From: a virus
Reading direction: 5' to 3' (one strand)
IMG/VR virus record: IMGVR_UViG_3300030102_005560
Coordinates: 1 to 64,000 of that record
Length of the DNA: 64,000 bases
Part shown: positions 4,433 through 63,234 of the stretch, one piece after another
Numbering within the stretch: the stretch's first letter is position 1
Layout: each line of letters opens with the position of its first letter
Notes under the pieces: generated by a model
The model's input: only the letters and a program-made list of their open reading frames with translations
Told to the model about the DNA's origin: nothing
Databases searched by the model: none
Made by a program: the position numbers and the translations under genes

Positions 4433-5893
4433 ATGGAGGAGTTCATCCTCAACATGGACATGGAGATGGCGAAAAAATCGTTCGAGTACTTCTTCACCGA
4501 GATGCTCGAGTTCATGTACAACGACCACCACAAATCATGGCACGATGGTCTTGCGAATCACCAGTACTACTGCGTCAAGGCGTCCCGTGACCATGGCAAG
4601 TCCGTCTTCTTCATGTCCTATGCCCTCTGGATTGCGGCCTTCAAGCCCAATACTCACATCATGATATTCTCACACTCCTTAGAGCAGACGCTTGAGCACA
4701 TGCGATTCATCAGGAACCTCGTTGAGGGCACACCCATACTGAGGCATCTCAAGGATGATGGTGACAGATGGGCCAAGTCGTACTTCAACTTCACGAACGG
4801 CTCCCGTCTGATGGCCAAGTCGGTCGGTGGTGCTACCCGTGGTTTCCACCCCGACATCGTCGTGTGTGACGATATCCTCTGGGGAACCACATCCACTGAG
4901 TTGGCCAAGACCGCAGACTGGTTCTACGGTGTCCTGCTCCCGGTTCTCCACCATAGCAGTAAACTGATGATGGTCGGCACACCGTTCTCATACAACGACC
5001 TGTATGCGGAACTGGAGCAGAAGGAGACCTTCAGGGTCGAGACTTATCCCGCGATTAACGAGAAGGGCGAGGCTCTCTGGCCCGGTAGGTGGGATTTGGA
5101 AGCGCTGAACCAGAGGCGACTCTCCATGCCCGCAATCCAATTCAGCCGTGAATATCTCTGTGAGCCGATTCACGATGTTGCGAGTATGTTCCCAATGGAC
5201 ATCTTAGAGAAGGCCAAGGACACTAATCTCGTCTTGCTCGACAGGGCTGAGACCTTCTACAATGAGGAAGGTGAGGCCGATGGCGTCTTCGGACAGCACT
5301 TTATCGGGCATGACCCTGCCATAGCATCTGACAAGAACGCTGACTTCACAGCCATGACCGTCATGAGGATAAAGCCTGATAGCGATATCAAGGAGATAAT
5401 CCACGTAGTTCACGAGAGGGGCATGTCCTCGATGGCGCAAAAGCGTATGATGGTCATGCTCAACAGCAGGTTCAAGCCGGACCTGATAGAACTCGAAGGA
5501 AACAACTTCCAGAGGATGCTGGAGCAGGAGATGAGGGAATTAGCCTCTGACATGCCAATCAGGGTCTTCATGACCACACGCACGAAGAAAGAGTCATTGT
5601 TCATGTCGCTCCTCCTTGCATTCGAACAAGGACAAATCAAACTACCATACGGAGATGAGAGGAGCAGGAAGTACACAGACCAAGTCATGCAGGAACTAAA
5701 CAGGTTCGGCATGCAGAAGAACGGCAAGTTGGAGAGCGTGGGTACCCATGACGACTTGGCCGTCAGCATAGCACTAGCGAATTGGGCGTCAAAGGAGTTC
5801 AAGGGCTCAGTAATGCTCCTCGATGATTATATGCCGGGTTTCGACGACTGGTTCAGAGGGGACCGCAAAGTCCCATCATGGATGGTGCCATAG
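4433..5893 (+). CDS. terL: Terminase large subunit (packaging ATPase-nuclease)
   Basis: This is the DNA-packaging motor. It hydrolyses ATP to drive DNA into the prohead through the portal and cuts the concatemer. The Walker A motif is ASRDHGKS (residues 50-57), and Walker B is DIVVCDDI (141-148). The C-terminal RNase H-fold nuclease shows its acidic residues in GHDPA (D294), LIELEG (about E353/E355) and GTHDD (D440/D441). At 486 residues it has normal length and appears intact. The reading frame extends about 36 bases upstream without a usual start codon, so the ATG is chosen. The order terL, LAGLIDADG protein, portal follows the common terL-portal-capsid arrangement with one insertion. Confidence 0.95.
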   Translation: MEEFILNMDMEMAKKSFEYFFTEMLEFMYNDHHKSWHDGLANHQYYCVKASRDHGKSVFFMSYALWIAAFKPNTHIMIFSHSLEQTLEHMRFIRNLVEGTPILRHLKDDGDRWAKSYFNFTNGSRLMAKSVGGATRGFHPDIVVCDDILWGTTSTELAKTADWFYGVLLPVLHHSSKLMMVGTPFSYNDLYAELEQKETFRVETYPAINEKGEALWPGRWDLEALNQRRLSMPAIQFSREYLCEPIHDVASMFPMDILEKAKDTNLVLLDRAETFYNEEGEADGVFGQHFIGHDPAIASDKNADFTAMTVMRIKPDSDIKEIIHVVHERGMSSMAQKRMMVMLNSRFKPDLIELEGNNFQRMLEQEMRELASDMPIRVFMTTRTKKESLFMSLLLAFEQGQIKLPYGDERSRKYTDQVMQELNRFGMQKNGKLESVGTHDDLAVSIALANWASKEFKGSVMLLDDYMPGFDDWFRGDRKVPSWMVP

Positions 5894-5943: not shown

Positions 5944-7086
5944 ATGGAGATGAGCAACTTCTCCAAGAGTGGCGAAGGGTGGTTCGAGGACAACCTCGGC
6001 ATCTCCGCTACTGACGTAGTGCACAGGCTACGCAAAGCGAGGAGACACAACAAGGATGAGAAACAGGACATAGACGCTCTGATTGAGGATGTCCGGACAC
6101 TCAAGTCGATGGAAGTGCAGATGACTCTCAATGAGATAGACTGGGCCAATGACTACATCAAGGAGATAAGGAATTTCGATTTGTCAGACAAGAGTCTCAA
6201 GTCACTGAGGAAGTTCTCCGACTCTAGGAAGGTCAGTCTAATCAAAGCATGCAGGCTTTGGAGAAAGGGAGAGGAGACTCTCAAGATGCTCGCAGAGCAT
6301 GAGGATGTCTGGGGCGAGGATGAGAGGATGGCTTGGGTGGATTCCATGAACATGAAGAAAGACGCTAGAAAGATGTGGAAATCCACGTTGTCCCAGATGA
6401 CAAGACTCACGGAAAAGGAGCAGGAGACGATAGCCAAGTGCTCCAAACTCCTGAAGATGAACGGGCCGATGAGTGCCAGAGCACTCTTCGAATCGGACAA
6501 CATCGAGAAGATGCCCGGTCTCACAGCGAACAAACTATCCAAACTACTGTCACTGTATGGTGAGGAAGTGGATATAGTCAACGGGGCACAGAGAGGCACC
6601 TTCGTCAAGATGGACAAGGACGGATTAGTGCTCAAGGACCCGTATGCATACGCCGCTGGGTTTCTTGATGCTGATGGGTACATCACCATAACGAAGAGGG
6701 GTGAGCCTCGAGCAGGTTTCATCGCTACTGGTACGAGAGGCAGACTACACTGTGAGGAACTCAGGAAGGTTCTCGATTGTGGTGTCCTTCAACTCGACCA
6801 GAAGGTGTACAAGGACAGCCAGAGGAGCCAACATAGGTTGCAATTCTACTCCAAGGGCGACATAAGGAAACTGCTCGACAAGATTATGCCCCATCTACAG
6901 ATGAAGAAAACACAGGCAAAAGCGGTGCTTGCTTTCCTAGAGGAGGATGATTCGATGAGGAAGGAGGAACTCAAGAGAGTGGTGAGGTATTCGAACTGGA
7001 GCGACGACAAGGCAAAGAGTGAGACCCTTCTCGCAGAGTGGGGCGTGAGTGCCGACGACGTTGCTAAGTGGCAGGAGAGATTGTAA
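5944..7086 (+). CDS. Winged-helix plus single LAGLIDADG domain protein
   Basis: The 380-residue product has a helical, charged N-terminal half and a probable winged helix-turn-helix at about residues 168-230. A LAGLIDADG motif follows, AAGFLDADG at 237-245, and about 90 residues fitting the rest of one LAGLIDADG fold. D244 is the position of the metal-binding acid, so cleavage activity is possible. A single motif means it would act as a dimer. The family is known for homing endonucleases and for the HTH-fused regulator WhiA. The gene is embedded in the packaging operon and its TAA overlaps the portal ATG. It could be a free-standing homing nuclease or a domesticated DNA-binding protein that helps packaging. 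The ribosome site is weak. Confidence 0.75.
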   Translation: MEMSNFSKSGEGWFEDNLGISATDVVHRLRKARRHNKDEKQDIDALIEDVRTLKSMEVQMTLNEIDWANDYIKEIRNFDLSDKSLKSLRKFSDSRKVSLIKACRLWRKGEETLKMLAEHEDVWGEDERMAWVDSMNMKKDARKMWKSTLSQMTRLTEKEQETIAKCSKLLKMNGPMSARALFESDNIEKMPGLTANKLSKLLSLYGEEVDIVNGAQRGTFVKMDKDGLVLKDPYAYAAGFLDADGYITITKRGEPRAGFIATGTRGRLHCEELRKVLDCGVLQLDQKVYKDSQRSQHRLQFYSKGDIRKLLDKIMPHLQMKKTQAKAVLAFLEEDDSMRKEELKRVVRYSNWSDDKAKSETLLAEWGVSADDVAKWQERL

Positions 7087-8858
7087 TGGCTGATGAAACA
7101 GAAAGGGGTCCAATAGGCCGATTTATAGATGCAATAAGGGGTCCTTTCAGGGTTCGTTCGACCCCTGAGCCGCAGATGCCGTTGTACACCACGGGCATAC
7201 AAGAGCCTGTTCTGGCTCAGGGTATCACCATACCCGCTCTATATGCGGTGTCACACGAGAACCTGATTCTCAGAACAGTCATCTCCAAACTCCAGCAGGA
7301 GATATTCAGGAGAGGCTATTACTGGGAGAAAAAATTCCAGAAGAAGTGCGTCGAATGCGACGAGGAGTTTCAATTCGACTTGGATGTCTGTGATGTCTGC
7401 GGCGGTGAGGTGAGAGGGCCCGACCCACATCAGACCACATACGCGAAGTGGTTGTTGAAGGGTGAGAACTCGATGGAACAAGGTTTCATGCAAGTCATGT
7501 TCGAGTTGGAGAAGGACCTCAACGTGGTGGACGATGCATTCCTCATCCTAGTCAAAGACTACTACATCGACCCTGATTCGGGTGAGATACAGCACTACAG
7601 AATAAGAGAGGTCATCCGCGGTGACCCCATCTTCATGAGAATCATATCCGACAAGAGGGGAGTCAGAGGTGGTAGGTACAAGGTCTGCCCCATTCACAGG
7701 GACCAAATCGCCTACCCCGGACAGGAAGAGAAGTGCACCGTATGCGGCAATCACATGCAGGATGCGCACTACGCAAACATGGCTGGTAGCGGCAAGACTC
7801 AGTATTACCTAGAGGGTGAGGTCATCCATATCAGCAAGTACTCACCAAGCAAATTGTATGGCAGAAGCCCAGTCAACACCATGTGGCGGCAAGCGATGAC
7901 TCTGACTGCGATGGACAATTACATGTACACGGCATATCAGAAGAGAAGGACACCAAAAGGCATCATATCAGTCACCACTGACAACCTAGAGTCAATGAAG
8001 TCCTTCTGGAAGTCGGTTGACGAGAAGATGGAGAGAGACCCTCATTACATTCCCAAAGTCGGCATTGAGAGTCAGACTGGTAGAGGCGGGGTGAATTGGG
8101 TCAAGTTCATGGATACCCTAGAGGAGATGCAGTACACCGCTGTCAGGGATGAGATTAGAAACAGGATAGCAGCCTACTATGGTGTGAGCAGCATATTCAT
8201 GGTTGATAGCGGGAAGAGCGGTGGACTCGGCAACGAGGGCATGCAGATTCTAGTCACGAACAGAGCAGTCGAGTTCGGTCAGAAGGTGTACACTGACATA
8301 CTATTCCCAAGAATGCTAAGAGAGATGGGCATAACGGACTGGAAGATTACCCTCTACCCCAATGAGGAAGAGGATGAGATAACCAGACTCAGGAGAGACG
8401 AGATGGAAGTCAACCTCGCTCAGAGGATGCAGATGCTCGGATACAAGCCTGAATTACTGGAGGAAGGAGATAGAGACATCAGGTTCTCCTACAGGAAACT
8501 ACCACCCGAGGAAGCCATGCAACAAGGCATGATGCCTCCGGGTGGACCACCCATGGGTGCCATGGGTATGCCACCGGGTCAGATGCCTCCCATGCCACCA
8601 CAAGGAGGCCCAATTGGAGCAACCGGTCTCAATCAGCAATTACCACCCAATATGATGAGGCAGATGATGCCACCATCACAACCCGGAGGAGAGGGTGTGG
8701 GTATCAGAACACCTAGAGGTCCAGCCGCTCCGCAGCGTCGAACGGTAGGTGGCTCCGGCTCACCAATATCATCGGTTCAACAGCGAGGTCCACAACCCTC
8801 GCAACAGGAGCAAAATAGTCGTGCTTTAATGAATGCGAGACGGTTTCGGGGTGCATAA
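7086..8858 (+). CDS. Portal protein with two zinc-binding insertions
   Basis: The portal dodecamer sits at the unique head vertex and is the channel for DNA. The long helical body, the segment around YYGVSS and GNEGMQIL, and its place after terL fit the HK97/SPP1-type portal group. The start is the ATG at 7086, overlapping the previous TAA and preceded by GGAGAG; a GTG at 7068 is less likely. Two putative zinc sites lie in the N-terminal half: C88-C91-C102-C105, and C201-H204-C217-C220. Zinc ribbons are unusual in portals. The C-terminal 110 residues are Pro/Met/Gly/Gln-rich and probably disordered. Length is 590 residues. Confidence 0.88.
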   Translation: MADETERGPIGRFIDAIRGPFRVRSTPEPQMPLYTTGIQEPVLAQGITIPALYAVSHENLILRTVISKLQQEIFRRGYYWEKKFQKKCVECDEEFQFDLDVCDVCGGEVRGPDPHQTTYAKWLLKGENSMEQGFMQVMFELEKDLNVVDDAFLILVKDYYIDPDSGEIQHYRIREVIRGDPIFMRIISDKRGVRGGRYKVCPIHRDQIAYPGQEEKCTVCGNHMQDAHYANMAGSGKTQYYLEGEVIHISKYSPSKLYGRSPVNTMWRQAMTLTAMDNYMYTAYQKRRTPKGIISVTTDNLESMKSFWKSVDEKMERDPHYIPKVGIESQTGRGGVNWVKFMDTLEEMQYTAVRDEIRNRIAAYYGVSSIFMVDSGKSGGLGNEGMQILVTNRAVEFGQKVYTDILFPRMLREMGITDWKITLYPNEEEDEITRLRRDEMEVNLAQRMQMLGYKPELLEEGDRDIRFSYRKLPPEEAMQQGMMPPGGPPMGAMGMPPGQMPPMPPQGGPIGATGLNQQLPPNMMRQMMPPSQPGGEGVGIRTPRGPAAPQRRTVGGSGSPISSVQQRGPQPSQQEQNSRALMNARRFRGA

Positions 8859-8896: not shown

Positions 8897-9262
8897 ATGG
8901 ACTTACTCAAGATGCACCCTATGGCGAGAAAAATGAATGTACATAATGAGGCCTTTGCAAAGGCTCTCGAAGCGAATGAACCCGAGGCTGCTAGAATGCA
9001 CCTGTCGGAGATAAAGAAACTCAGTTCATACCTAGAAGAAGACCTAGTTTTCGCAATCAGGAAAGCAGAGGAAGCGGCATCTGACCCTCTGACTGTATAC
9101 GCGAATGGTGTTCCAACGGCATCCTTCAACGAATCTGGCTCATCCTTCGACCCAGCAAACAGGGATATTCAACTACCCGGAACCATAATGTCAGCACGAA
9201 CCAATTCACGAATGCAGAAAGCAAGAAGCACATTCGGCAGATATGTTGGACCCGGTGAGTGA
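8897..9262 (+). CDS. Small hypothetical head-module protein, 121 aa
   Basis: No family recognised. Residues 15-65 form an Ala/Glu/Leu-rich helical region, followed by a Ser/Pro/Asn-rich segment and a basic C-terminus. Its GTGA end overlaps the GTG of the next gene, so both are probably translated together. It lies between the portal and the protease, where head-assembly cofactors are usual. Confidence 0.72.
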   Translation: MDLLKMHPMARKMNVHNEAFAKALEANEPEAARMHLSEIKKLSSYLEEDLVFAIRKAEEAASDPLTVYANGVPTASFNESGSSFDPANRDIQLPGTIMSARTNSRMQKARSTFGRYVGPGE

Positions 9263-9609
9263 AACTGATGGAAGAAGGCGGCGCTGAAAGACTGATGAAT
9301 ACTCTCATCACCAAGATGGAGAGTATCGACAACGAGGTCCAGATTCTAAAGGCAGAGAATGCCGCACTAAAGAGAATGGTAGATTCCCCTGCTGCTCTAC
9401 TGAAGAAAGCAGGATTCGTCACAGCAAGAACTCCACTCAGTGTCGACGTCGGTTATGACCCGCTACGTGGTGACTTACCAGTCGATGAAGCCAGTGCTGT
9501 CATCAAGTCCGATAACAACGAGTACAGCAATGAGGAGATACACAATCTAAGTTGGTCGGAAATCCACGAGATGGCCGAGCAGACGAGAGAAGTCAAGGAG
9601 TTGTACTGA
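9259..9609 (+). CDS. Coiled-coil protein with SWSEIH C-terminal motif; scaffold-like
   Basis: The 116-residue product has an N-terminal coiled coil (about residues 8-42) and a linker. It ends in a short helix carrying SWSEIH at 98-103, 13 residues from the C-terminus. The prohead protease/scaffold protein ends with a matching SWSEVH motif 10 residues from its own C-terminus. The shared ending suggests that both proteins bind the same partner, perhaps the capsid protein or portal; that is inference. The start is GTG, overlapping the previous stop. It is not a known family to me. Confidence 0.7.
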   Translation: MKLMEEGGAERLMNTLITKMESIDNEVQILKAENAALKRMVDSPAALLKKAGFVTARTPLSVDVGYDPLRGDLPVDEASAVIKSDNNEYSNEEIHNLSWSEIHEMAEQTREVKELY

Positions 9610-10302: not shown

Positions 10303-13300
10303 GTGCGAGAGGATGGGCTAGAAGTTCTTGCAAGGAACAGAGCCGATTTACTCAAATCAATCACACAGGGCTACGATTACGAGCAAGAGGCTGGTCATTA
10401 CCTACTCTCCATCGAGAACATAATTCGCTCAGGTATAGACTACGAGGCCACCAATGACGACCTAGTTTGTCTCAAAGCCGCTACAGACATCCTGAAGCAG
10501 ACCCTCTCAGGACAGGAACTGATAGACTACCTAGAGCGCACCGAGCCTGATGTCGAGAGGACCATAAAACCGAGAGGCAGACCCTCTTCTTTTACAAGAA
10601 ACATCTCCAGACTCCTACCCCAGTACATGACTGACCATCATTACCAAGGGAGGATGACAGGTGGCCATGACACAGGCATGGCTCACGGTAAGTGGCCCGG
10701 AGCCAAACCTGACGAAGATGGCCACTATCCAATTCATCATCCCTTCCATGAGGATATACATCCTATGAGGATACAGAACACAGTGACTGGTAGACCCACG
10801 TACGAGTCTATGCTCTTCGAGAAGTACTTCGGCCACGATGACACACCATGGTGGGATGATGACTTCCATGAGAAAATGGCAGAGGCTCCTGAGGAGGAGT
10901 CCTTCGCCAAGCAAGCCATGAGAGTCGAGGATGCCCATGAGAAGCATCACAGAAAACTAGGCTCCCCGATATACCAAGGTGTAGACAGGGGTGGTGGCGA
11001 TATCGCATACTCCTTCCTCGGTGGTCCCAAGTCGAACAACGTCGACAGCCCCTATGACCACATGGAAACGACACGCATGAACGACTATGAGAGATGGAAG
11101 GAAGAGGAGGCCACTGATATGGCTGCTCTCGAGGAAAAATTCTCTGGATTGTCAGAGGAAAGCAAGGAGAGAGCCATGCAGATGCAGCACTTCAAGGACA
11201 GGATGGACAAGATGTCATTAGGTGGCACTACCACTACGAGTGTCGACCCGACTGAGGGAATGACCGACCAAGAGAGAGCAGACTTCGTCACTGAGTTCGG
11301 TCCAGAGGCAGCGGAGCCCTACCCCATGAAACATAGTCATTCCATGGGTTGGGACACTCTGAAGAAAGGCATGTACTTCCTGAAGCCAGAGGACCGAACC
11401 AAGATACTCCAGCATCTCGATGACAATGGGAGTGATGACCCCGAGCATCAGTTGGTCACCTTGTCTGATGGCAAGGAGTTCCCCATGACGAGACTCAAGA
11501 AGAACCTAGAGATGAACGCTGGACCTGAGAAGCACTGGTTCAGCAGGAGTCACGGGGCCTCAGCACCTAACGTGCCGAAGACCATCGAGTCCGAGACAGA
11601 CTCCAAGTTCAAAGGCTCGGAAGGGGGCATAGCATCCGCTCTCAGAAATGTCAGCGTGGATGACAAGACCAATGCCTATGACAATCTGCTCAATGGACTG
11701 ACTTCGCTCCTGAACCAAGGCGCTGACATGGATGACATCCATGAGATACCCAATCTCTTCACCCATGATGACTACGGTCGAAATAGATTGAAGTCATTCT
11801 TGGAGACCAACGAGTCACCAGCAAAGGCATTCAGGGACCATGCGAATAGTTCCAATGAGGCAGCGCTCAGTAGAGAGGGATTCCTCAGCCTCGCAGGGTA
11901 CGACAGCGAGTTGAATACTCTGGACAAGCATTCCACCCTACCTGATGAAATCTATGATGGGCCACTTCTGGGCAAGGATGTGGTCGAGCAGGTCCTATCC
12001 AAATACGACCAGAACGTATCACTGGGCATGCAATCCAAGGATATCAAGAACGCATACGGTTTCATAAGGTCAGGATTCAACGCACCCAGAGCAGCAGACC
12101 TACCAGATGGACACAAGGACCACTACATCACGATGGATGGCAAGATGAGGGGACTCAGCCATCTAGCAACCAAGTACTACGGTGACAGGGGTGGTCTAGG
12201 TAGGGACCCAGCAACCTATGGTGAGTTCATCCACAATCATCACAGATACGGTGAGGGTGAAGAATCCTCATTCATGACCAAGAAAGAAGGGGAACAATCA
12301 GTCACACCAAAACCAAGACCAGCAGAAGTAGGTGGAGCGGAGTTCGGTACCCCGGAAGGAGAGCAGTCGCTCCTCGGGGGCGTGAAGACGAGTATTCTGG
12401 AGCCAAGAACAGATACAGTGGGGCTGTACGGTGGGCTGCACATATCTCCCATCCTGCCCGGACAGAGGTCACCGATGAGCCCTTTGCAGATACTCAGTAG
12501 ATACGGTGTATCTAGGAGGGACATCGAAGGCAGTGACAAGGCGAGAAGCAGCCACAACAACTACACCGACGAACTCACCACACTCTTCCCTTCGGTGATG
12601 GGAAGCGTACACAACCAACTACCGACATCTGACACTCACTTCCAAGACATGAAGTTCGATAGGGAGACCGCTGCTGACTTCCAGCAGTTTCACCCCTATG
12701 CGGGAATAGGCTCAGAATCTAGGGGCGATGCTTCTCTCATGAACAGGACTGGTGCCGCGCATAGACTGGCCTTCGCTCTTGGTAGGTACAATGACCCACT
12801 CAATCCATCGAGCGAGTTTGTTCACACTTACCGAGACCTCTATGACGACCCGCAACTGGGACCAAGACCTACTCTTCACTCCGAGTTCCTACAGCATCTG
12901 GGAGACGCGAGAAAGGTAATCTCAGATACCGATAATCGTAGAGGCATGCTGTCAGAGATGAATGACATCATGGAGAGGATAGAGGACATCGAGTCCGGAA
13001 AGGTCCCTAGTAGTAGAAGGGATGCGGAACTGCAAATCCTGAGAGGTGACTTAGACAAACTAACAGCACAGGATGAGCAATACAGAATGGGACAGTTGGA
13101 TGTCAGAGACGTCCGCGGCAAGCAACTAAGCAGGGATTTCTCCGAGAAGTTGGATGCTGACAAGAGAGCAGTTGCTGAGTACGCCAAGACCAAACTACTG
13201 CCTATGTTGCTCAAGGAGAACCCTGATGCGTTCAACACAGGTGACCCAGTCACAGCCATGGCAAATGCGATGAGACTCGCTCATGACGCTAGTCGAGGAT

Positions 13301-15489
13301 TAATGGTAGATGGTGACCATGACCTCAGTACCTTCGGCTATCACGAGAAGGAGGAGACTAGGGATAGCCTAGAGCAGGCTCTGGAATCCAGAGGACAGAC
13401 ATCCCCTCACAAGAAACTCGCTATGGCTTTGAGGGACAAAGGCACAGAACTAACTCCTGATATGGGAGTAGAGCAAGCAAGACAGGCTCTAGGCCTACCT
13501 GATGATGAGTTCCATAACAAACAAGTCGAAGACACGCTAGGCACCTTGGTCGGTCCTACGAAGGCTGCTACCTTCGGGCAAGTCGCTACAATGGGTGAGG
13601 AACTCCATCCGAGGATAGACAACATGTTCTCGGAGTTCAAGGACATAGACGACTTCAGGGAGCACATCGATGGCTTTGAGGATATTCCTGCTAGAGATGT
13701 GAGAGGGTCTAAGGCCTTCAACACAAGCAACACGGCATATGGCTCCCTTGGTTTCCTTCGTCAATTGGCTAGGATGGGTGACATGACTGCATACGGTCTC
13801 GGCCATCAGGAGCATCCAACGCCTGAAAAGGACATCAACTCGACGACCAAGGAGAGGGAGAGACATAAGGCACTCTCCAGTCATATCTTCACATTCGACG
13901 AGGGACAATCCGGTCCCCTTGAGGAAGCCAGCGCTGGTAGTGTGACAAAACCAGTCCACGGTAGAATGACCGTGCCGATAAGACCAGTTCCCGAGATGGA
14001 GGGTAATGTAATCTCACCAATATACAACTCAGGCAGAATGGACTTCGGATATTCAATGTCACCTAGCATAGGTGTCGAGTATAATTCGAGGGGAAGCCCC
14101 ATGGTCGGTACCAACATGCCTAGTGATACCCTGTTGAACTCGGTCTCCATGCCTTGGATGAACTACGTATTCGGAGACGAGTGGACCCAAGACCTCTATT
14201 CACAACCGGGACTATCCCAGATATCAGGTCTACAAAGCAACCAGATGGCTGTGGACCCGGACACTGGAATGGCACCAATAGACGACTTCAATGCGATTGG
14301 CAAGATGCTCAAGGCGGAGTTGCCCAAGGAGATGCCACTGATAGACCCGCTTCACAGGATATTCGAAATCGATGACATGGAGGAACTACGCGGGTTCACT
14401 GGCGAGTGGGTCGTATCGAAGTATCACGAGGGTCAGAGGGTCAAGGTCAAGAAGAAGGGCAGCAGGATAGAAATCACCGATGAGGATGGCGAAAAAATCG
14501 GAGTAGACGATGACATGAGAGCAGCGCTCAGGAAGGTATGCCAGAGGGATTACGTAATCGACTGCACCATAGTGGATGATGACATTCATGTCAACGACAT
14601 TCTACTATACGATGACACGGACGTCACAGACCTCACTACCAGAGAGAGGGTCAAACTAATCAGAGGACAGTTCGACAGCCACGAGCCTGTGCATGTCCCA
14701 AGCCCTGAATCCATACGTGTCACAGACGAGGTAGGATTCGAGGAAGCGGTCAAGGACCTCGGTGGTGGTGGGCAGAAACTACTCCTGAGAGACGCCAAGT
14801 CTACTTACATGAAAGGCGAGGAGAGACATCCGAAGTGGGTTCTGCTTGCAAAAGCACAGGAGCAAGTCCACATACCATTCGCAATGGAGATGGACAGGGG
14901 GCATTTCATCCTCCATCTACCGGAGGACTTGGTGAAGTACGAGATAGTGGATGAGGAACCCGTCAACCCAATCGCAGCGATAGGCAGCATAACCAAGTCG
15001 GATTACTCATTGAGACTCGCTAACAGCCTAGAACCCTATTGGCGTCAAGGTTTCAAAGAACTCCTGAAAGAGGAGTTGGATAGGGCCGATTGGGATGAGG
15101 ACAAATCAAACGAGGGCATGACTGAGGAACGCGCCAAAAGAATAGAGCATCAGAGCGGTGGACTTCTCAAACCCAAGAAGGACAAGAACATGCTTCTCAA
15201 ACCGAAGGACACGCTGAAGGCTCTATTACTCATAGAGAAGGCTTTGGAGAAACTCGAGAAAGCAGGCAGTGGTCATTACCCCATGAGCGGTGGTAGGGCT
15301 CTTGGTATCGACGTAGGCTCGGATATAGCCAGCCCTCGAGGACCAACTTCGTTAACTTCGGAGCATGCGGTCCCAGATTGGGACATGAAAGAGAGGCCTG
15401 AGCAGGACCCAGAGAAACCCTCAGACTACCCCAAGAAACCCAAAGAAAAGAAGAAGAAGGAAGAGCAGTACGACGATTTAGAGGTATGA
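10303..15489 (+). CDS. Giant head-module protein with C-terminal degenerate DNA-ligase-like domain
   Basis: The product has 1728 residues from a GTG start with a gagaaggtgg ribosome site. Residues 1-1350 are charged, His/Asp/Met-rich and unrecognised, with several helical stretches. Residues about 1365-1520 read like the nucleotidyltransferase domain of ATP-dependent DNA ligases. SKYHEGQRV (1372-1380) is in the place of motif I, YVIDCTIV (1417-1424) of motif III, DILLYDDTDVTDL (1432-1444) of IIIa, and KLLLRD with KWVLLAK (1492-1517) of motifs IV/V. K1373 is one residue out of register with the usual KxDG, and the DGE of motif III is DCT, so the domain is probably catalytically dead. A Lys/Pro/Glu tail ends the protein. 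Position between portal and protease suggests a virion role. Confidence 0.8.
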   Translation: MREDGLEVLARNRADLLKSITQGYDYEQEAGHYLLSIENIIRSGIDYEATNDDLVCLKAATDILKQTLSGQELIDYLERTEPDVERTIKPRGRPSSFTRNISRLLPQYMTDHHYQGRMTGGHDTGMAHGKWPGAKPDEDGHYPIHHPFHEDIHPMRIQNTVTGRPTYESMLFEKYFGHDDTPWWDDDFHEKMAEAPEEESFAKQAMRVEDAHEKHHRKLGSPIYQGVDRGGGDIAYSFLGGPKSNNVDSPYDHMETTRMNDYERWKEEEATDMAALEEKFSGLSEESKERAMQMQHFKDRMDKMSLGGTTTTSVDPTEGMTDQERADFVTEFGPEAAEPYPMKHSHSMGWDTLKKGMYFLKPEDRTKILQHLDDNGSDDPEHQLVTLSDGKEFPMTRLKKNLEMNAGPEKHWFSRSHGASAPNVPKTIESETDSKFKGSEGGIASALRNVSVDDKTNAYDNLLNGLTSLLNQGADMDDIHEIPNLFTHDDYGRNRLKSFLETNESPAKAFRDHANSSNEAALSREGFLSLAGYDSELNTLDKHSTLPDEIYDGPLLGKDVVEQVLSKYDQNVSLGMQSKDIKNAYGFIRSGFNAPRAADLPDGHKDHYITMDGKMRGLSHLATKYYGDRGGLGRDPATYGEFIHNHHRYGEGEESSFMTKKEGEQSVTPKPRPAEVGGAEFGTPEGEQSLLGGVKTSILEPRTDTVGLYGGLHISPILPGQRSPMSPLQILSRYGVSRRDIEGSDKARSSHNNYTDELTTLFPSVMGSVHNQLPTSDTHFQDMKFDRETAADFQQFHPYAGIGSESRGDASLMNRTGAAHRLAFALGRYNDPLNPSSEFVHTYRDLYDDPQLGPRPTLHSEFLQHLGDARKVISDTDNRRGMLSEMNDIMERIEDIESGKVPSSRRDAELQILRGDLDKLTAQDEQYRMGQLDVRDVRGKQLSRDFSEKLDADKRAVAEYAKTKLLPMLLKENPDAFNTGDPVTAMANAMRLAHDASRGLMVDGDHDLSTFGYHEKEETRDSLEQALESRGQTSPHKKLAMALRDKGTELTPDMGVEQARQALGLPDDEFHNKQVEDTLGTLVGPTKAATFGQVATMGEELHPRIDNMFSEFKDIDDFREHIDGFEDIPARDVRGSKAFNTSNTAYGSLGFLRQLARMGDMTAYGLGHQEHPTPEKDINSTTKERERHKALSSHIFTFDEGQSGPLEEASAGSVTKPVHGRMTVPIRPVPEMEGNVISPIYNSGRMDFGYSMSPSIGVEYNSRGSPMVGTNMPSDTLLNSVSMPWMNYVFGDEWTQDLYSQPGLSQISGLQSNQMAVDPDTGMAPIDDFNAIGKMLKAELPKEMPLIDPLHRIFEIDDMEELRGFTGEWVVSKYHEGQRVKVKKKGSRIEITDEDGEKIGVDDDMRAALRKVCQRDYVIDCTIVDDDIHVNDILLYDDTDVTDLTTRERVKLIRGQFDSHEPVHVPSPESIRVTDEVGFEEAVKDLGGGGQKLLLRDAKSTYMKGEERHPKWVLLAKAQEQVHIPFAMEMDRGHFILHLPEDLVKYEIVDEEPVNPIAAIGSITKSDYSLRLANSLEPYWRQGFKELLKEELDRADWDEDKSNEGMTEERAKRIEHQSGGLLKPKKDKNMLLKPKDTLKALLLIEKALEKLEKAGSGHYPMSGGRALGIDVGSDIASPRGPTSLTSEHAVPDWDMKERPEQDPEKPSDYPKKPKEKKKKEEQYDDLEV

Positions 15490-15547: not shown

Positions 15548-16957
15548 GTGGTCCTAAGTGAGCAACTCTACAGAGCAGACGAGTCGATTTCACTCCTCAA
15601 GGGTGGAAACGACCTCATTGTCGCTGGATATGCCAGTGTCGAGTTGGTTGACAAGCAGGGCGATATAATCACAAGGGGGGCATTGAAGGACGCATTTCAG
15701 AAGTTCATGGAAGACCCGAAATACAGAAACGTCCAACTAGCGCACTCAAATATACAGGTAGGAGAAGTAATTCCAAATTATACAGATGCAGAAGGGAGGT
15801 TGTGGAAGAGCGAAGTCGATGATGTCGGAATGTTTGTAGTAGTACAATTACGTAATGACATCGAGAAAGCCAAAGAAGTCTCAGCGGAAATACGCAAAGG
15901 CGGATTAAGGGGTTTCAGTATCGGCGGTCAGGCGTTCAAGAGAATGAGGAAATCGGACCCAAAGAGGGGCGACTACCAAGAAATCAGTAAACTTGAATTG
16001 CATGAGATAACAATTTGCGAAAAAGGAATTAACCCAGAAGCGACATTTAGTATTTTGAAGGAAGACAAAGGTGAAAAAATGACAGACGAAAACGATGACA
16101 TGATGAAACAGATGAGCGATGTGCTATCTCGTCTTGAGGGCAGGCTCGAATCCTTGGAGGGAGACTCCGTGGACAAGGGTGAAATGCCAGCAGGTCTGAA
16201 AGAGCACATGGCTGACAAGAAAGAAAGCAAAGATGACAAGGACGACAAGGAGAAAGCCTACATGAAGGGCGAAGACAAAGATGAGGACAAAGAAGACAAG
16301 AAAAAGTCTGAAGAGTTCTCTGACGTTATCTCCTCTGAGTACCTGAACTGGATGGAAGACACCCTGAAGAGCGGCGGAGTTGACATCGATGGTGCAAGAG
16401 CACACTTCGATGACCTCGAGAAAGCAAACCTAGGTTCTACCCCAGAGTCCATCGGAGACGGCGCTGACTACTTCGGTGGTCAAGTGAAAGGCCGAGCACA
16501 GGAAAACGGTGCTCCTTCCACTAACGCAGTCGCTCGAACAACCGGCAGCGGTGGCAAGAAAGACGTGAAGAAATCGGACTACTTGGACCCAGCACTGGTT
16601 AGTGACGCAGACGTAGAGGCCGCATACGAGGTCTACAAGGCTGCTGCACTAGAGCAGGACTACAGGGCTACCCTTGAGAAGCAATTCGCTTCCCGCTACG
16701 CAAGCGAGCGAGAAGAGGAAATCGCAAAGGCTGAGGCAGCAGCATACGATGCTCGCGGGCCTCTAGCAGAGATACAAAAATCGATTGAAGCGCTATCGGA
16801 GAGAATCGAGAGCGTCACTTCATCTCCAGAGGTTGGCGAGACCATCCAGAAGTCGGCTGAGGCACCATCGGTGACTGTGCCCTCTACTGAAGACCTCGCA
16901 TCAATGTCGTGGAGCGAAGTACACAACTTGGCAACGAGGGCCTTCAATCCGGAGTAA
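15548..16957 (+). CDS. HK97-type prohead protease fused to scaffold domain
   Basis: The N-terminal 170 residues match the HK97-family prohead protease (peptidase U35-type), which cleaves scaffold and capsid proteins during maturation. Visible signatures are GYASVELVDKQGD (residues 27-39), the catalytic His in AHSN (H66), the catalytic Ser in GFSIGG (S124), and LELHEI with E153 as the likely third residue. Residues about 178-469 are a Lys/Asp/Glu-rich linker and helical region typical of scaffolds, ending with SWSEVH (454-459). The start is GTG without a clear ribosome site. An internal ATG at M178 has a GGTG just upstream and could yield a free scaffold. The major capsid gene follows after 14 bases. 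Confidence 0.9.
   Translation: MVLSEQLYRADESISLLKGGNDLIVAGYASVELVDKQGDIITRGALKDAFQKFMEDPKYRNVQLAHSNIQVGEVIPNYTDAEGRLWKSEVDDVGMFVVVQLRNDIEKAKEVSAEIRKGGLRGFSIGGQAFKRMRKSDPKRGDYQEISKLELHEITICEKGINPEATFSILKEDKGEKMTDENDDMMKQMSDVLSRLEGRLESLEGDSVDKGEMPAGLKEHMADKKESKDDKDDKEKAYMKGEDKDEDKEDKKKSEEFSDVISSEYLNWMEDTLKSGGVDIDGARAHFDDLEKANLGSTPESIGDGADYFGGQVKGRAQENGAPSTNAVARTTGSGGKKDVKKSDYLDPALVSDADVEAAYEVYKAAALEQDYRATLEKQFASRYASEREEEIAKAEAAAYDARGPLAEIQKSIEALSERIESVTSSPEVGETIQKSAEAPSVTVPSTEDLASMSWSEVHNLATRAFNPE
16079..16957 (+). other. Possible internal in-frame start: separate scaffold protein
   Basis: The ATG at 16079 (M178 of the protease) follows aaaggtgaaaaa, a good ribosome site of the type used throughout this window. 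It falls exactly at the junction between the protease domain and the scaffold region. Initiation here would make a 292-residue scaffold without protease, as lambda does with C and Nu3. The DNA shows only the site; use of it is inferred. Confidence 0.35.
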
Positions 16958-16971
16958 AGAGGTGATTAAGA

Positions 16972-18108
16972 ATGGCAAGAGATTACGTACGCACAATAAC
17001 TGACATGGAGCGCTATTACTATGGCGCCGGGAACGCAATGGGCTACTCCTACTCTGGTAGCGAGTTGCTCAAGGCTGACAGCCCTATGCTGTCCACGACT
17101 GCTGGTACCTACCAAGCAATCTACGGGCGCAAGGTCTGGTCGCAACTGAACCAAGAGTTCAATGCATTCAGCATACTACCAAAGAGGCCTTGGGACCGCT
17201 CTGGATGGAGAGTCATCACTGACAAACCAAACGCAGGAGTCGTCCACGGTGGAGTCGCAGAGAACGCAACCCTACCTGAGACCGTAAAGCCAACTTTCCA
17301 GCACATCGCTGCAAAGCCAAAGACAATCGCACACACGTTCGATATGTCTGAGACGGCTATCTTCCTAGCAGACAGGGACGACGGATTGGGAGACATCCGA
17401 GCAGTCCTCAAGGAAGAGATGGGCAAGCACCACGCTGAGATGGTCAACAAGATGCTCTTGACTGACTGTGACACAGTAGCAGGAAACAACTTCGAGTCCT
17501 TAGACCGAATCACTGCAAGTGACGCAGCAATGAACACATCAGTTCACGTAAACGCAGCAGCAGACTTGGACATATACAGCATCGACAGAAGTGCTAACAC
17601 TTGGTCCGACGCGGAAGTCAACTGTGACTCAAGCGGAAACGACAGGACACTGTCCCTAGACCAACTGGACACTCTGTTCCAGCAAATCTGGGAGCGCGGT
17701 GGAAACCCCAAGGTTATGCTAACTGGATACGACACTCTGATGAGACTACAGCAACTACTACAGTCCCAGCAGAGATTCATGGAAGAGAAGAGAGTCACAC
17801 CAACCTACAACGGCGTGAAGGGTGTACCCGGTATGGAAGCCGGATTCATCGTAGCGACCTACAACGGTGTGCCAATCATCCCAACCAAGGACATGGATGA
17901 CGATGGAACTCTATCCAAGATTTACTACCTAGACACAGACTACCTTTACTTCAGCACTGCGATACCAACCCAGTACTTCGAGTCTGGTATCGAGACTGGC
18001 GACCCGTTCGCCATCAACAGGCTAGGTCAGGAAGGACTCTACAGAACGATGGGAGAAGTATGGACCACTTTCTTCGGAGCACAAGGGAGTATTCGTGACC
18101 TAAAGTGA
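16972..18108 (+). CDS. Major capsid protein, HK97 fold
   Basis: This 378-residue protein follows the protease, has a GAGGTGA ribosome site, and shows the layout of HK97-like capsid proteins. An N-terminal arm of about 40 residues is followed by a region with KVWSQLNQEFNAFSILPKR, a long spine-helix-like segment (about residues 130-165, with LKEEMGKHHAEMVNKMLL), and an A-domain. It ends with a DPFAINRLGQEG stretch common near the end of such proteins. It should form the icosahedral shell. The protease upstream may trim its N-terminal arm, although no long delta domain is present and the scaffold is instead fused to the protease. Confidence 0.9.
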   Translation: MARDYVRTITDMERYYYGAGNAMGYSYSGSELLKADSPMLSTTAGTYQAIYGRKVWSQLNQEFNAFSILPKRPWDRSGWRVITDKPNAGVVHGGVAENATLPETVKPTFQHIAAKPKTIAHTFDMSETAIFLADRDDGLGDIRAVLKEEMGKHHAEMVNKMLLTDCDTVAGNNFESLDRITASDAAMNTSVHVNAAADLDIYSIDRSANTWSDAEVNCDSSGNDRTLSLDQLDTLFQQIWERGGNPKVMLTGYDTLMRLQQLLQSQQRFMEEKRVTPTYNGVKGVPGMEAGFIVATYNGVPIIPTKDMDDDGTLSKIYYLDTDYLYFSTAIPTQYFESGIETGDPFAINRLGQEGLYRTMGEVWTTFFGAQGSIRDLK

Positions 18109-27689: not shown

Positions 27690-30600
27690 GTGTCAGTACT
27701 CAGTCGTAGCAACCACGCTTTCTTCTTCGATGGTGTGAGTGACAGCATCATCGTTCCTGATGGTCCCTTCATACTAGGCAAGAGGGACTCCTTGGGTAAC
27801 ACGAGCGTCAAGGAGTTCCTAGACGATGACAATGCGGACCCGCAGTTGTCAATCACCTCAGGCTTGTACAGCAACGAGTTGACCATAGAGGCTTGGCTCA
27901 TGCCTGACTGCGGTGGCACGGTAGTCGAGAAGTCAGGGCAGTTCAAACTCACCGTGGGCAACGTGGACACTCCCGGCCCCGCTACCTTCGGCATATATCT
28001 CAACAACGGCAGCAGTGACGAGTACCATGAGATAAGCACGGGTAACAAGACTGCCACGAGATATGAGGGAACGGTGTACCCCGCTTCCGAGTTCGGTGGT
28101 ATACACGAGTCCTACAACAGGTTTGACACTTCCACCTATGGAACGGCGACCGATTTGAACAGGAATCACAGGCAACTGCTTCACGTCATAGCCACCTTCA
28201 GGGAGAAGGGGCTAGAGTTGTACGTGAATGGTCAGATAATGGCATCCAAGAGCCTGAAGGACGTCCCTCGGACGATAGCGAAGAGCAACTCGAACATATA
28301 CATCGGTGGCAAGGGAGGGCAATTCAGAGGCGTCATGGAGGCCATTCACATCAAGGGTGGCTTCAAGCAAGGCATGACGCACGGCAAGTCTCCCCTCAAG
28401 GATGACACCACCATGCTCCTATACAGATTCGAGGAACCAATATCACCAATAGAGAAAGAGTACGCCTTCACGTCCATAACCAATGACTTCAATGACGCTG
28501 GTCTGAGCACGATATCAATCAGCGCTTCTGATGCCCAAGCCATAGCGACTCTCCTGACTGGTAAGGCTGCTGACCTCTCCAACTTCCCCAACGGCAATCT
28601 GGACTTCACAGTCACGCCCTACAGTTCTGGCAAGTACACAGTCGTGCACCCCACCTCTGGAAACAAGTACATACCTCACGTGCCCTACAACCTCCTAATC
28701 AATCCCAATTCTATAGACAGGAAGACGAGGAAGCCGAACCAGACTCCCCCTGAGAGAGTCAGGCTGCACTCGATAGACTCCATGTTCGGCGCTGCTACCC
28801 TGACGGTATCCAGCGTGCATCTGGACCATGACAGGGGTGTAGCCAACGATGGGCTCATGGGTGTCCTGAACAAGAGCAGGACCACTGACTCTGATGACTA
28901 CTTCGTCATCATCAGCGCTGACCTGCTCATAGACTCGGGCACTGGTAGACCCTACCAACCACCTCACTTCTCCACGCAGATAATTGACAGGACAGGCCAG
29001 ATGGTGATAGACGAGAGCAACTACGAACGACATGGTCTAGTGTACTCGTCGAGAATGGCAACTTCCACAGTCGATACGGACAACCCATTCGCTCCAGTAT
29101 GGTACTCCTCAGTGCCTAGCGAGTTCCAGATAGGACACAGCGGCAGGCACGTTAAGAACCACGTTGACGGTCACCCGTTCCTCAGAATGCTCCCCGATGC
29201 CAATGAGGAGATTGTAGACCTGAAGGGAGACGGGCAGGCTGATTTGATTGACATAATCTACGACCAGATGCAGGATGGCGTGGAGCATCAGATATCGGTC
29301 AATAGCAGGGTCGATGTGTTCAGGGACCTGAACGACCTACCCATCAACAGCATAACCAACACTACCACAGTCACACAGGTAGTCAACACGTACCAAGACA
29401 CTGGGAGCCCACCGACGGGCAAGAGGAAACTCCTAGCGATAGGTGGTCCTCAGATGGACTTCAGACCATTCGCTCTGAAAGGCCCCGTCCCACTCGTGGG
29501 TGAGGAGTACGCCTCCGACATCAGGAAGCATCATCTCAGGCCCTCTTCGCAAAGTCGAGTCGCCCTCCTTCACGTACCCCAACTGTCCACTAGCAACATC
29601 AAGTTCGCTCCCTACGTGGAGATACACTACAATGCCATGGACCTCACTGGTGCGAGCATGTACAAGCCGGTTACCGCTGGCTCATTCGTCTCTGGGCAGA
29701 CGTACATCATAGTCAGCATCGGGGACACTAACTTCACTACGATAGGGGCATCCGCTAACACTGTAGGCTTGATATTCGAGGCGACCGGAACAGGCTCAGG
29801 CACAGGCACAGCGCGACCCTACCACCCGATGCTCATGGTCGAGAAGACAGTGCCTGCATCCGATGTATCGATAGGCGCTGGCTCCTACGTCTATGATGCG
29901 ATAGCCGATTCCATATCATCGGGTAAGACCCTGTATGCCGCTGGTGGTGTCATAGACTTCGATGTCGGGAAACTACAGACGAACAGCAACATGCTTCAAC
30001 CGCACAACCTGATTGGTGACAACAGCGAGGGCTACGCAGCAGACAGCGATGTCGATGAGACCTCCTCCCCTGCCAATTACACTCCTCGTGAGAGTGATTC
30101 TTCTGAGAACAAGACTCCATCTGTCATACTCGACTCCACCAGCAGCGGAAGGAGCCACGAGTCGGTGTTCAACAAAGTCAGACTATCCAAGCCCGGTCAC
30201 AAGCACTCGCTCAATGACATAGGGGACTACTCCAGAGTTGAGCCACAGACAGTGCCCGGCTCACCCTCGACTGGTGAGTTCGACACTGGTATCACAACCT
30301 CGCACTCGCACGTTCACGAGGTGTTCGACATCATCGACAACGTCCCTCTGGTAAACGACAGCATCTCCAACATGAGCCTGATACTGCAACCCTCTGACAG
30401 GAGCAGGACCAATCAACTCAGCAGGGCGAAGTCCCTTCTAGACTCATTCGACACACCCAGCCAATTCAAGATAATGTGCATGATGAGCAGAGCGAGAGTC
30501 AGAAGCATAAAGGAGAACGACGCTGCTGACAAGGGGAACTACACGGTAGTGCATTGCGTCGGGCTATCCGAGTCAGCAGCGTCCAGAAACGTCGACTTCG

Positions 30601-33600
30601 TTGGCACTGGTAGCCCCGACTCCCACATAGTCAAGGAGATTGAGCCCAATGCGCCCGTGGTAACGGTCACACTGGGTGGTCCGGGTCAGGGTGCGATGGA
30701 CACCAAGCCGCTGTACCACAAGAGCAAACTAGCCCATGAGTCGTACTCCACCAGAAGAGCGTATGCCGTAGAGGCAGTGAAACTGGAGATGGACTTCCTC
30801 TCTGGCACTGGCACTCTGCACATCAGACCCCTGAACAACAACTCGGATGACCTCGCCAGTTGGGGCACGTACGGCTTCCCCCGCTATGGTAGCATCTACA
30901 TGCCGGATGGCAGCAGCGCGAAGTACTCATCCAAGACCGGAACCTCATTCTCATTCGTGGCATCATCACTTGGCTCCGGTGACTACCTATCGTCATCCGG
31001 CTCGGAGTACACCACGATAGCCCAACTGCTCAATGCGATTGGGCTGATGGCAGGCTCCACCAGCGGTGTCGTGGAGATATACGGCAACTTCACCATATAC
31101 AGCGAGCCTGACTTCGGTGACGAGTCGAACATAGAGAACGGGACAACCGTGAATGACAAGATGCACCAGAGCCTCAACGACGTCCAACACGACTACCAAC
31201 TAGGTACGCAATACGCAAGCACCAGAGCGCTTGTAGAGATACCGCTCTTCGCCAACCAGTTCTTCAAGAGCACCATCGGCCCTGATAACGGGTTCAAGAT
31301 TCACTTGGATGCCACTCACACAGCACATACCTACAACCCATCTCCTGTCGGTAGGAGGCCGAAGGGCACCAGTCCCGCAGACAGGGAGGCCGAATCAGCA
31401 TACTCCTTCGCCATGGCAAACAGGCAGTACGTCTCATCATCCACAGTGAAGAAGTGGACCGATACGAGAACCGTGAAGAGACTCTACGTCTCCAACATCA
31501 GCATATTCCCTGACTCATCCACATCGACTGACACGTATCAGGGAATCACTAACGCATTCAGGTACAGAAAGATAAACCTCGCCAATGGCGAGTACGCATA
31601 CTACACTAACGTGAATACCTCCAATGGGTATCTGGATATCCTCAATACCGAATATGGCTACAGCCCCGAGTTCTTCGACTCTCTGGAAGCAGGCATCACG
31701 GTCTTCCTGAACGAGTCCAGATTGAACAAGGAACTACCACCCATGTTCTCTGACAGCATCAGCCAGTCCTCCGACTTCGAGAACAGGAGCGAGTACTACC
31801 ATGACTCAGCCAGCGTCAAGACACAGGGAGGGAATGTGGATTACGGTCTCAGGCAGTACGTCACGGCAGTCGAGTTCAAGGCCGGTCCCGAGAGCAACCC
31901 ACACGCACCTAGGGTAGGACCGAGAAGGGCTACAGGCAAGGTGCTCAGCGAGTTGAAGACATCTCTCGGTAACGACGAGTTCGCCTTGACGCTCACACTC
32001 AGTCCGGATGAGTTCTCCACGTTCCCGAATCTCGGGTATGACACTCTGTCAGAGGCACCATTGGAAGCGGGAGAACTAATCTACGAAGTGCAGTACGATG
32101 ACTCTGGTACGATTCACAGGTACCACTACCATGGCAACCTCAAGACTGTAGGCTCACTGACCACACCAGAGAACAGCATCACCCTGACTTACACCACCAC
32201 AGGTGGCTTTACCTCGTACCCAGTCTCGATACTCAACAAGAGGATAACGCTCAGCAGGAAGGCCTCTAGGGTCCTGCGAGAGACCTCGGCGTTCGGTACT
32301 GGCTACACCTACTACGAGGGAGGCACCGTCTACAGGGAACTCTTCAACAACATGAACATAGACACCACCATCGCCATACAGCAGAATGACTCCTCCAGCA
32401 ATCCCGAGTCCCTGATACAACTCACGATGCCAAGCAACAGGACCCTGCATGACCTCCATAACATCAGCGTCAAGAAGGATGACGAGGTGTACTACTACGT
32501 CGATACCACCACTGATGAGTTGAGGAAGATAGGAACGGTAACCAGAGTCGTCAGCGGTGAGGGGTCCAACAACACCACCATACACCTGAGTGCCAATGCC
32601 CCTACAATACCAGCCAGTGCCAAGTTAGCAGTAGCAATGGGTGACTACGAGGACAAGGACGCTATCCTCAATGCCCATTGGCTGAACCCGTACGCTCCGG
32701 GTGGCCTCAGGAACGGTGACACCATCTGGGCCAACATGTCCTACAACAACCCGCATGCCGTAGAGGGGCTGTTCGCCAAGAGCAGAGGAGTGTACAACGA
32801 ATCACAAGTCTGGACGGAGTTCAATGGCGGCACCGGGTCACTCAACAACTCACCGAGGGACAGCATACCGATAGAGAACTTCATGATAGGCAAGACGTGT
32901 CTGGAGACTGCTAGGAACTACGTGCAGCACGTCAATCGGACGATAGAGGAGAACTACCTCGCACTGGGACTCACTGCATCCCAAGCACCCACAGTGGCGT
33001 TCGTCGACCCCTATCTATCCACTCCCACCCATGCTAGAGTGCTGCTGTACGATACGGCGCACGATAGGGAGTTCGTGGCATTTCAAGACATCTTCATGCA
33101 GGTGCAGACGAGCCCAGAGACAACCCAACTGGGATGGCGAAAGGAGGTCGTAGAGGGCAGTGCGAGGAAGCCGTTGCACAAGGTCAATGCCCAATACGCG
33201 GGTAGCGGACCGAGCCCTTGGACCACGCAGATTGACGTCACTAACGGATACCCCTCGCAGAACCCGTTCATCAGGAGCACCCAGCAATCTAAATTCATAG
33301 AGAGCGCGTATGCACATGACCTAGCCAATAGGCAATCCAGCGACCTATTGGGGAGCACTGTCCCCACTGGTTCCTACACCCTACCCACTGATGGTAGGAG
33401 CAGCACCAGCGTCAGGATATACGGAAAGGCCCATGGTCATCACGTGCACACCGAGTACTCCCTCGGTGGCACTCTGTCCAACATCAGGCTCGGTAACAGC
33501 ACCGTTCCCAGAACCAACGACTCCGTGGTGCTCCACAAGGTCGCAGATGAACTGCACTTCCTAGGTAGGAAGCCTGCTGGTACGAACGTAGACGTATTCA

Positions 33601-58520: not shown

Positions 58521-58742
58521 TCAACTTTCTCCGCCGCTGGTCATTCTAGGCAACAAGTTTCTCTTCTTTTTGAATACGGAGTCCTGCCAGAAGTGCCCGC
58601 ATTTCTTGCACTGCCACAGTTGTATTCTCTTCTTTATCGCAGTGGTATCCCCGTTGTGGTATCTAGCAGTGAGACGATGTGGGACGTGAGTGTGATTGCA
58701 GTTTCTACACTTCACTTCCAACCGCTTCATCAGTCGTCCCAT
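58521..58742 (-). CDS. Zinc-ribbon protein, 73 aa
   Basis: CRNC and CKKC pairs separated by about 30 residues form a zinc ribbon. The protein is very basic, as for nucleic-acid binding. The ATG at 58742 overlaps the chaperonin stop (TGATG) and has GAGGAG upstream. Function unknown; a transcription-related role is possible. Confidence 0.7.
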   Translation of the reverse strand: MGRLMKRLEVKCRNCNHTHVPHRLTARYHNGDTTAIKKRIQLWQCKKCGHFWQDSVFKKKRNLLPRMTSGGES

Positions 58743-62306: not shown

Positions 62307-63008
62307 CTATTCTATACGTTTGAACCTGCTTGCCTCTACGTGAACTGGGTTCTCGCTGGTCAAGACCTCGATGACCTTCTTCCTGCCCTTCTCGCCTAGT
62401 CCCTTCACCATCTTCAACGACTCGGGGTAGCACATCTCCTCTATTGACCCGCATTCCTTGAGAAGCCTGTCTGCCATTTGACTACCGATACCCGGCACGG
62501 TCAGTAGCATGTCCTTCCTGACGTCATTGGTGCTGACTCTCCTGATTGCCTTGGCACCGTGCGCGGATGCGGGCTTGTGCAGTTTGTTGTGCAGTTTGAC
62601 TATGAAGAGCGCTGCCTCGCTCAGGTTGGGCGTGAAGAACACCTGACAGTCGAAGTCGGACATTATCCTCGCAATCGTGCCTATCAGTTCGTTCTGCACT
62701 CTCGTGTAAGTGAGTTTCTTGCCGTTGTTCTTGCTCATGGCGATGTACTTGTCTATGCCGCCATGTATCAGGAGGAAGAAGCGCTCGTAGTTAGCGTCCA
62801 TGTTGTCCAGTTGCCTCCAGAGGTGACCGCTGTGACTGGACTGGAACAAGTCGCTGATGGACTTGGCCTCGATGCAAGCATTACCCAGCAAGTAGTCACC
62901 AACGACTAGGGTCCTCTTGCCCACTCTGAGACCGACTGACTCTGCCTTCCTTATCACCGAGTCATGCAGTGGTCCTCTCTCGTTGCTATCTATCACTAAA
63001 TCAGCCAT
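62307..63008 (-). CDS. ERCC4/XPF-type structure-specific nuclease with HhH domain
   Basis: The 233-residue product has the ERCC4 nuclease core: VIDSNERG (D7, E10), GDY (37-39) and IEAKSISD (E47, K49, D53), matching the V-D-x-E / GDY / ERK pattern. The C-terminal part holds two helix-hairpin-helix motifs (VPGIGSQMADRLL and VKGLGEKGRKKV), which bind branched DNA. It would process forks or recombination intermediates. The ATG at 63008 is chosen; an upstream GTG at 63017 is less well placed. Its start overlaps the end of the Zn-finger gene. Confidence 0.9.
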   Translation of the reverse strand: MADLVIDSNERGPLHDSVIRKAESVGLRVGKRTLVVGDYLLGNACIEAKSISDLFQSSHSGHLWRQLDNMDANYERFFLLIHGGIDKYIAMSKNNGKKLTYTRVQNELIGTIARIMSDFDCQVFFTPNLSEAALFIVKLHNKLHKPASAHGAKAIRRVSTNDVRKDMLLTVPGIGSQMADRLLKECGSIEEMCYPESLKMVKGLGEKGRKKVIEVLTSENPVHVEASRFKRIE

Positions 63009-63234
63009 TACGTTCACGCTCCGCTATTCTTTTGTGGATACCACAGTACTTGTCACAACTGTAGTTCTTTCTCAGTTTGCATCTGCTACCGTCCCTCTTG
63101 GTGTAGATGCATCTGTCCTCGTGAGAGGGGTGCTTGTAGCACTTACCACATAGTTGGCTGAACACCGCCTTTTTCCTATTCCCATTTCGGGAGGACAGTT
63201 TAGCGTTGCACTCCTTACATCTGTTGGTGAACAT
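63001..63234 (-). CDS. Small Zn-finger protein, 77 aa
   Basis: It has two putative zinc sites: CKEC with CGKC (about residues 6-32), and a later group in the order C...GSRCK...C...YCGIH. The latter pattern is common in small viral proteins. The protein is very basic. The ATG overlaps the primase stop (TGATG) and GGAGGG is the ribosome site. It is probably a nucleic-acid-binding accessory of the replication module. Confidence 0.72.
   Translation of the reverse strand: MFTNRCKECNAKLSSRNGNRKKAVFSQLCGKCYKHPSHEDRCIYTKRDGSRCKLRKNYSCDKYCGIHKRIAERERNG

Follow-up and report, generated by a model that had tools for sequence, protein, structure and literature searches.

Phage T4 packs internal proteins into its head, and they enter the host cell along with the genome, as the Dar proteins of phage P1 also do. 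The DarA and Hdf proteins of phage P1 are also packaged in the head, and DarA is trimmed by the head protease (PMC12810830). In the Druskaviridae, HVTV-1 gp115 and HCTV-1 gp109 ('zeta toxin', 1313 and 1210 aa) are likewise long head-module proteins with an enzyme-like annotation, encoded upstream of the protease and major capsid protein (MCP). For the magroviruses (Magrovirales; Aoguangviridae, Apasviridae), those parts of the published descriptions available to us (PMC10160649, PMC10768690, PMC12999244) count an ATP-dependent DNA ligase among the genes of replication, and mention neither a dead ligase nor a second one encoded with the head genes. The literature that we covered, which included few subscription papers, held no precedent for ligases in virions or dead ligases in capsids, and no earlier description of a second head-module ligase and its dead form was found there. 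Here we analyse a stretch of 64,000 nucleotides from IMG/VR record IMGVR_UViG_3300030102_005560 (hereafter the window) encoding a 1728-aa protein with a ligase-like domain near its C end.

A ligase-like domain in the head module

The features discussed are collected in Table 1. The genes around the 1728-aa protein were identified with Pfam and PHROGs as those of the terminase large subunit (TerL), portal, protease and MCP, and 'head-module protein' is therefore a fair label by position. Presence of the protein in the virion is suggested by gene order only, and the T4 and P1 proteins are no more than a possible analogy. In the likewise long HVTV-1 and HCTV-1 zeta-toxin proteins the annotated domain is a different one, and the 1728-aa protein showed no detectable sequence relation to them. 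At L169 (4539-8480) and L170 (5744-9376) the long Druskaviridae 'zeta toxin' protein lies among the head genes. Elsewhere in the window, the portal contains two Cys-rich, zinc-ribbon-like stretches (weak DZR matches), and positions 27690-46121 form a single ORF of 6143 aa.

Table 1. Positions of the features discussed, in window coordinates
Feature	Position	Strand	Evidence or remark
Terminase large subunit (TerL)	4433..5893	+	Terminase_6C 2.7e-12; phrog_38 1.8e-64
Portal protein	7068..8858	+	Phage_portal 1.1e-10; phrog_18178 1.6e-65
1728-aa head-module protein, dead ligase domain near C end	10303..15489	+	ORF, GTG start
LLKS, residues 16-19 of the 1728-aa protein	10348..10359	+	Similar to LLK[SAG] near MCP N terminus
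Degenerate nucleotidyltransferase domain of the ATP-dependent DNA ligase type (residues ~1337-1520)	14311..14862	+	PF01068; AlphaFold2 + VIA-align
Motif I region GEWVVSKYHEGQR; catalytic column Tyr1374 (codon 14422-14424); Gly1377, Arg1379 kept	14401..14439	+	
Motif III, DGE to DCT, residues 1420-1422; Asp1420 kept, Glu to Thr1422	14560..14568	+	
Motif IIIa, VFDI to VNDI; Asp1432 kept	14590..14601	+	
Motif IV, EGVVIKD to QKLLLRD; catalytic Glu to Gln, Lys to Arg	14773..14793	+	
IV-V loop (conserved) with motif V (degenerate), AKSTYMKGEERHPKWVLLAK	14794..14853	+	
Beta-rich segment after motif V, residues ~1525-1579	14875..15039	+	Strands in AlphaFold2 model
Head maturation (prohead) protease	15548..16957	+	phrog_23555 3.6e-15
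Major capsid protein (MCP)	16972..18108	+	phrog_24667 9.8e-61; 33-35% identity to HVTV-1, HCTV-1 MCP
Chaperonin Cpn60_TCP1	58742-60238	-	1.2e-125
ERCC4 nuclease	62307-63017	-	6.7e-18

IMG/VR was scanned with the domain, giving 141 relatives (80 loci retained) whose identities ranged from 24% to 98%. Three groups were distinguished. Group A comprises window-like proteins of 1701-2147 aa (the size range of the full-length relatives of the 1728-aa protein in IMG/VR) with a domain identity of 48-98% to the window. Group B (L061-L066) comprises proteins of ~1,800-1,860 aa that are related to the 1728-aa protein along most of its length, with a domain identity of 36%, or 41-42% when measured by tblastn. 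In group C (from L067 on, L069 excepted) the proteins are of 840-940 aa, with 24-32% identity (tblastn E 5e-24 to 1e-17) and all ligase motifs intact. Representative loci of all three groups have one gene order: portal, ligase-like protein, protease, MCP; the gap from portal to ligase holds several ORFs (~4 kb) in group C and three small ORFs in groups A and B. Among genome contigs, no relatives were found in a first scan and five group C loci in a second. The latter (L173-L177) lie on MAG contigs labelled Maricaulis and Altibacter; these are most likely mis-binned virus contigs and therefore give no host. Searches of named phages by tblastn returned no match for the whole 1728-aa protein or a group C ligase, and matches at E>1 only for the domain.

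On its own, the isolated region of the window aligned with positions 117-200 (of 204) of the Pfam profile DNA_ligase_A_M (PF01068), with a score of 21.3 bits (E=2.4e-4) that falls slightly short of the curated cut-off. Group C proteins matched the same profile above the cut-off (3e-32 to 8e-28) and, when one was compared by sequence with solved archaeal ligases, the best match was 3gde (5.5e-17). The chain from the window through groups A, B and C to PF01068 excludes a chance resemblance of motifs, as does the fold, and the domain is a member of the PF01068 superfamily by descent; it lacks the catalytic residues of an active ATP-dependent ligase. A frameshift artefact was also ruled out, the long open frame being maintained in all complete relatives.

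An AlphaFold2 model of the domain, built from 47 rows of groups A, B and C, had a mean pLDDT of 83.5, and exceeded 90 over most of the nucleotidyltransferase region; it is not independent of the homology claim because group C rows are in the alignment. In Foldseek searches DNA ligases occupied the best 50 matches throughout, and predicted viral structures matching the model were mostly DNA ligases and related capping enzymes. By VIA-align human ligase I was best (Z 18.5, rmsd 2.4-2.8 over 173-176 residues), the aligned part being model residues 18-201, or protein residues 1337-1520. Across the best rows for Lig1-type archaeal and eukaryotic ligases, Z was about 17-18.5 with rmsd mostly 2.4-3.1 over ~175 residues. 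The earlier note, made from the sequence alone, had proposed a ligase-like domain at 14380-14860 (residues 1360-1520; about 1365-1520 as the note counted them) and had named an unrelated predicted fold as evidence against it; the fold obtained is that of a ligase adenylation domain. Few structural alignments reach the strands after motif V (e.g. 6wbo, 203 residues aligned); on this weak evidence the segment, which has no Pfam match, is a possible remnant of the ligase OB domain.

Short motifs recur in proteins of the head module. In 95% of group A proteins, residues 16-18 are hydrophobic-hydrophobic-K, usually with A or S as the next residue; most group A proteins also have K[AS] ahead of the domain. 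As a sequence pattern, LLKS at residues 16-19 may mark a site for the protease or direct the protein to the head. Nearly all MCPs of all groups (16972-17080 in the window) carry hydrophobic-[LM]-K-[SAG] near residues 20-34, followed by a variable linker. In loci L067-L168, small and otherwise different ORFs between the portal and the head ligase begin with M-x-W-x-x-[ILV]-[ILM]-K (e.g. MSWQDILK, MNWFSIMK, MDWFELVK), a candidate head-targeting or processing tag found in 180/465 ORFs there against 3/543 downstream of the MCP and 0/1822 on the minus strand, counts that are not independent as the loci overlap. Lastly, a C-terminal [ML]SWSE[IV]H motif occurs in the protease (15548-16957) and in a small head-module ORF (9259-9609), in the forms MSWSEVHNLA and LSWSEIHEMA, and also in related loci.

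Loss of the catalytic residues

The motif order I, III, IIIa, IV, V reported in the earlier note was correct, as were its readings of DCT for DGE and of a catalytic Lys out of register, the nearby Lys being residue 1373. With ATP-dependent ligases the domain shares, besides fold and motif order, the motif I Gly and Arg, the motif III and IIIa Asp, S-x-Y and a Trp near motif V. It differs from them in lacking the catalytic Lys, the motif III and IV Glu and two motif V Lys, and in its setting, close to the C end of a head-module protein of 1728 aa. The changes in motif IV and those in motif V, where two Lys are replaced by Leu and Ala and the last Lys is kept, go beyond the losses noted earlier.

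The motif I region reads GEWVVQEKYDGMR in group C and GEWVVSKYHEGQR in the window, with identical spacing. As the GE...GxR spacing is that of intact relatives, there is no gap that could shift Lys1373 into the catalytic column. The catalytic Lys was absent from 67/67 group A and B sequences, where the column holds H, Y, Q, L, F, M or W. Relatives with an intact KxDG, which the note had suggested looking for, were found in group C (101/101 sequences), although some loci are one contig sampled twice and the 67 and 101 sequences are not 168 independent observations. In a residue table of 47 representatives, the motif III Glu, the motif IV Glu and Lys, and two motif V Lys were lost in all 24 from groups A and B. 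Twelve other positions were invariant across these 24; invariant residues include Gly1377, Arg1379, Asp1420, Asp1432, Asp1497, Ser1500, Tyr1502, Gly1505, Lys1511, Trp1512 and Lys1517, and Arg1496 stands throughout in place of the motif IV Lys. With catalytic residues lost across both groups, ligase activity of the window domain is, judged from its residues, very unlikely. The suggestion of a dead nucleotidyltransferase in a capsid-region protein thus stands, with the gene lying between portal and protease/MCP.

A second ligase in group C

All 15 group C records searched contained two PF01068 genes, one of 838-938 aa in the head module and a stand-alone gene of ~505-526 aa (E 9e-33 for one, the others 6e-33 or better, down to 3e-41). 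Given a separate ordinary ligase in every one of these records, the head-module copy probably does not serve replication. In 14/15 records of groups A and B, the dead head domain was the only PF01068 match. The exception, G004 of group A (L193, G004:C1:11400-15000), encodes an extra 379-aa ligase that is very divergent on the tree. Nine group A records, including that of the window, contain a family B polymerase, and the replication region is therefore at least partly present; most records may be fragments, so that the missing second ligase is not proof of its absence from these viruses. NAD-dependent ligase was not found in the 17 records searched, and the RNA-ligase family gave no match in group A and B records and, in group C, only cross-hits to its two DNA ligases.

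In a tree of 51 domains, stand-alone and head ligases were separated with 100/100 support, and groups A and B formed one clade (100/100). This clade adjoins L070, L078 and L084 of group C (88/86), a branching from inside group C that is uncertain because the branches are long. The ligase domain is the only part common to group C proteins and the 1728-aa protein; the domain may thus have been transferred, as an alternative to fusion in place.

The gene content of group C resembles that of magroviruses. A split family B polymerase was present in 3/4 records checked, and the head genes are related to those of Druskaviridae. The Druskaviridae-like MCP, chaperonin and ERCC4 nuclease of the window and the split family B polymerase of group C fit the magroviruses as described in the available parts of PMC10160649 and PMC10768690. 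From gene content we infer that group C are magroviruses; the magrovirus assignment carries with it a presumed Poseidoniales host.

Possible roles of the dead domain

We favour, as probable, the explanation that magrovirus-like archaeal viruses took a second ligase into their head module, and that in the lineage of the window the fold of this ligase was kept while catalysis was lost. The ligase is encoded in the head module of related archaeal tailed viruses, apart from the replication genes; in the window's lineage it would have become part of a head-module protein of ~1,700-2,150 aa, near whose C end the domain lies. The 1728-aa protein may enter the prohead together with the portal, protease and capsid protein, where its pseudo-ligase domain might work without catalysis as a structural docking module in which the ancestral surface for binding nucleic acid or a partner is partly retained (Arg1379, the RDAKSTYMKGEERHPKW loop and Lys1517). 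The original active head ligase would most likely have sealed nicks in viral DNA during packaging or just after entry; the dead form would have kept its place in the head and lost its chemistry. More tentatively, and with rather less than even confidence, we propose that magrovirus-like viruses carry a dedicated second ligase in the virion head, packaged or sealing nicks at the portal, which in one lineage lost catalysis and became a component, structural or DNA-gripping, of a giant head protein.

The earlier note had suggested reuse as a DNA- or nick-binding module, possibly in packaging. The dead domain could indeed be a sensor of DNA ends or nicks in the packaging machine, given that the ligase fold holds nicked DNA, that the motif I Arg, the IV-V loop and one motif V Lys are invariant, and that the gene lies near those of portal and protease. 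However, two motif V lysines are gone, neither the window protein nor the group C head ligases have a Pfam match to the canonical N-terminal DNA-binding domain of Lig1-type ligases, and the domain has turned acidic, with a net charge of -10 in the window and a mean of -4.7 in group A, compared with -0.7 in intact head ligases and +2.6 in stand-alone ligases. The charge is a weak argument against plain DNA binding. Nick binding is thus a possible role that we consider rather unlikely, and a role in structure or in protein binding is no less likely than binding of DNA or nicks.

It is also conceivable, if improbable, that the neighbouring protease trims the 1728-aa protein and that the pseudo-ligase fragment is ejected with the genome into the host, there to act, for example, as a decoy or as a protector of DNA ends. 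The hydrophobic-hydrophobic-K-[AS] around residue 18 and the K[AS] just before the domain, both like the LLK[SAG] of MCPs, would fit such processing, but the motif is short and may instead be an assembly signal, and the protease site is a candidate only.

Two further readings have very little in their favour. That Lys1373, although out of register, still forms the adenylate and leaves an enzyme active in an unusual way is highly improbable: within the subclade of the window the Lys does occur (SKY[HY][DE]G), but its column is V, I, T, H, A, C or S in other group A and B members, and the Glu and Lys losses in motifs III, IV and V described above count against it too. A decaying relic without function would account for the loss of all catalytic positions, but is scarcely credible for a domain that is retained across group A and, at 36% identity, in group B, and is among the best conserved parts of the 1728-aa protein, with omega values among the five closest relatives of 0.020-0.053 against 0.081-0.130 for residues 1-1339 (approximate, as dS is near saturation in most pairs). 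The dead domain is under strong purifying selection.

The conversion of enzymes into structural parts of viruses is mostly inferred after the fact. Here, in what is apparently one of the few cases where the change from enzyme to head part is open to view, related viruses of one gene order offer the intact form, the dead form and a stand-alone ligase for comparison. The 'DNA ligase' of magrovirus gene lists may cover two different proteins. Moreover, marine archaeal viruses may use DNA ligation when the head is assembled, or the genome packaged or delivered, a proposal that is testable.
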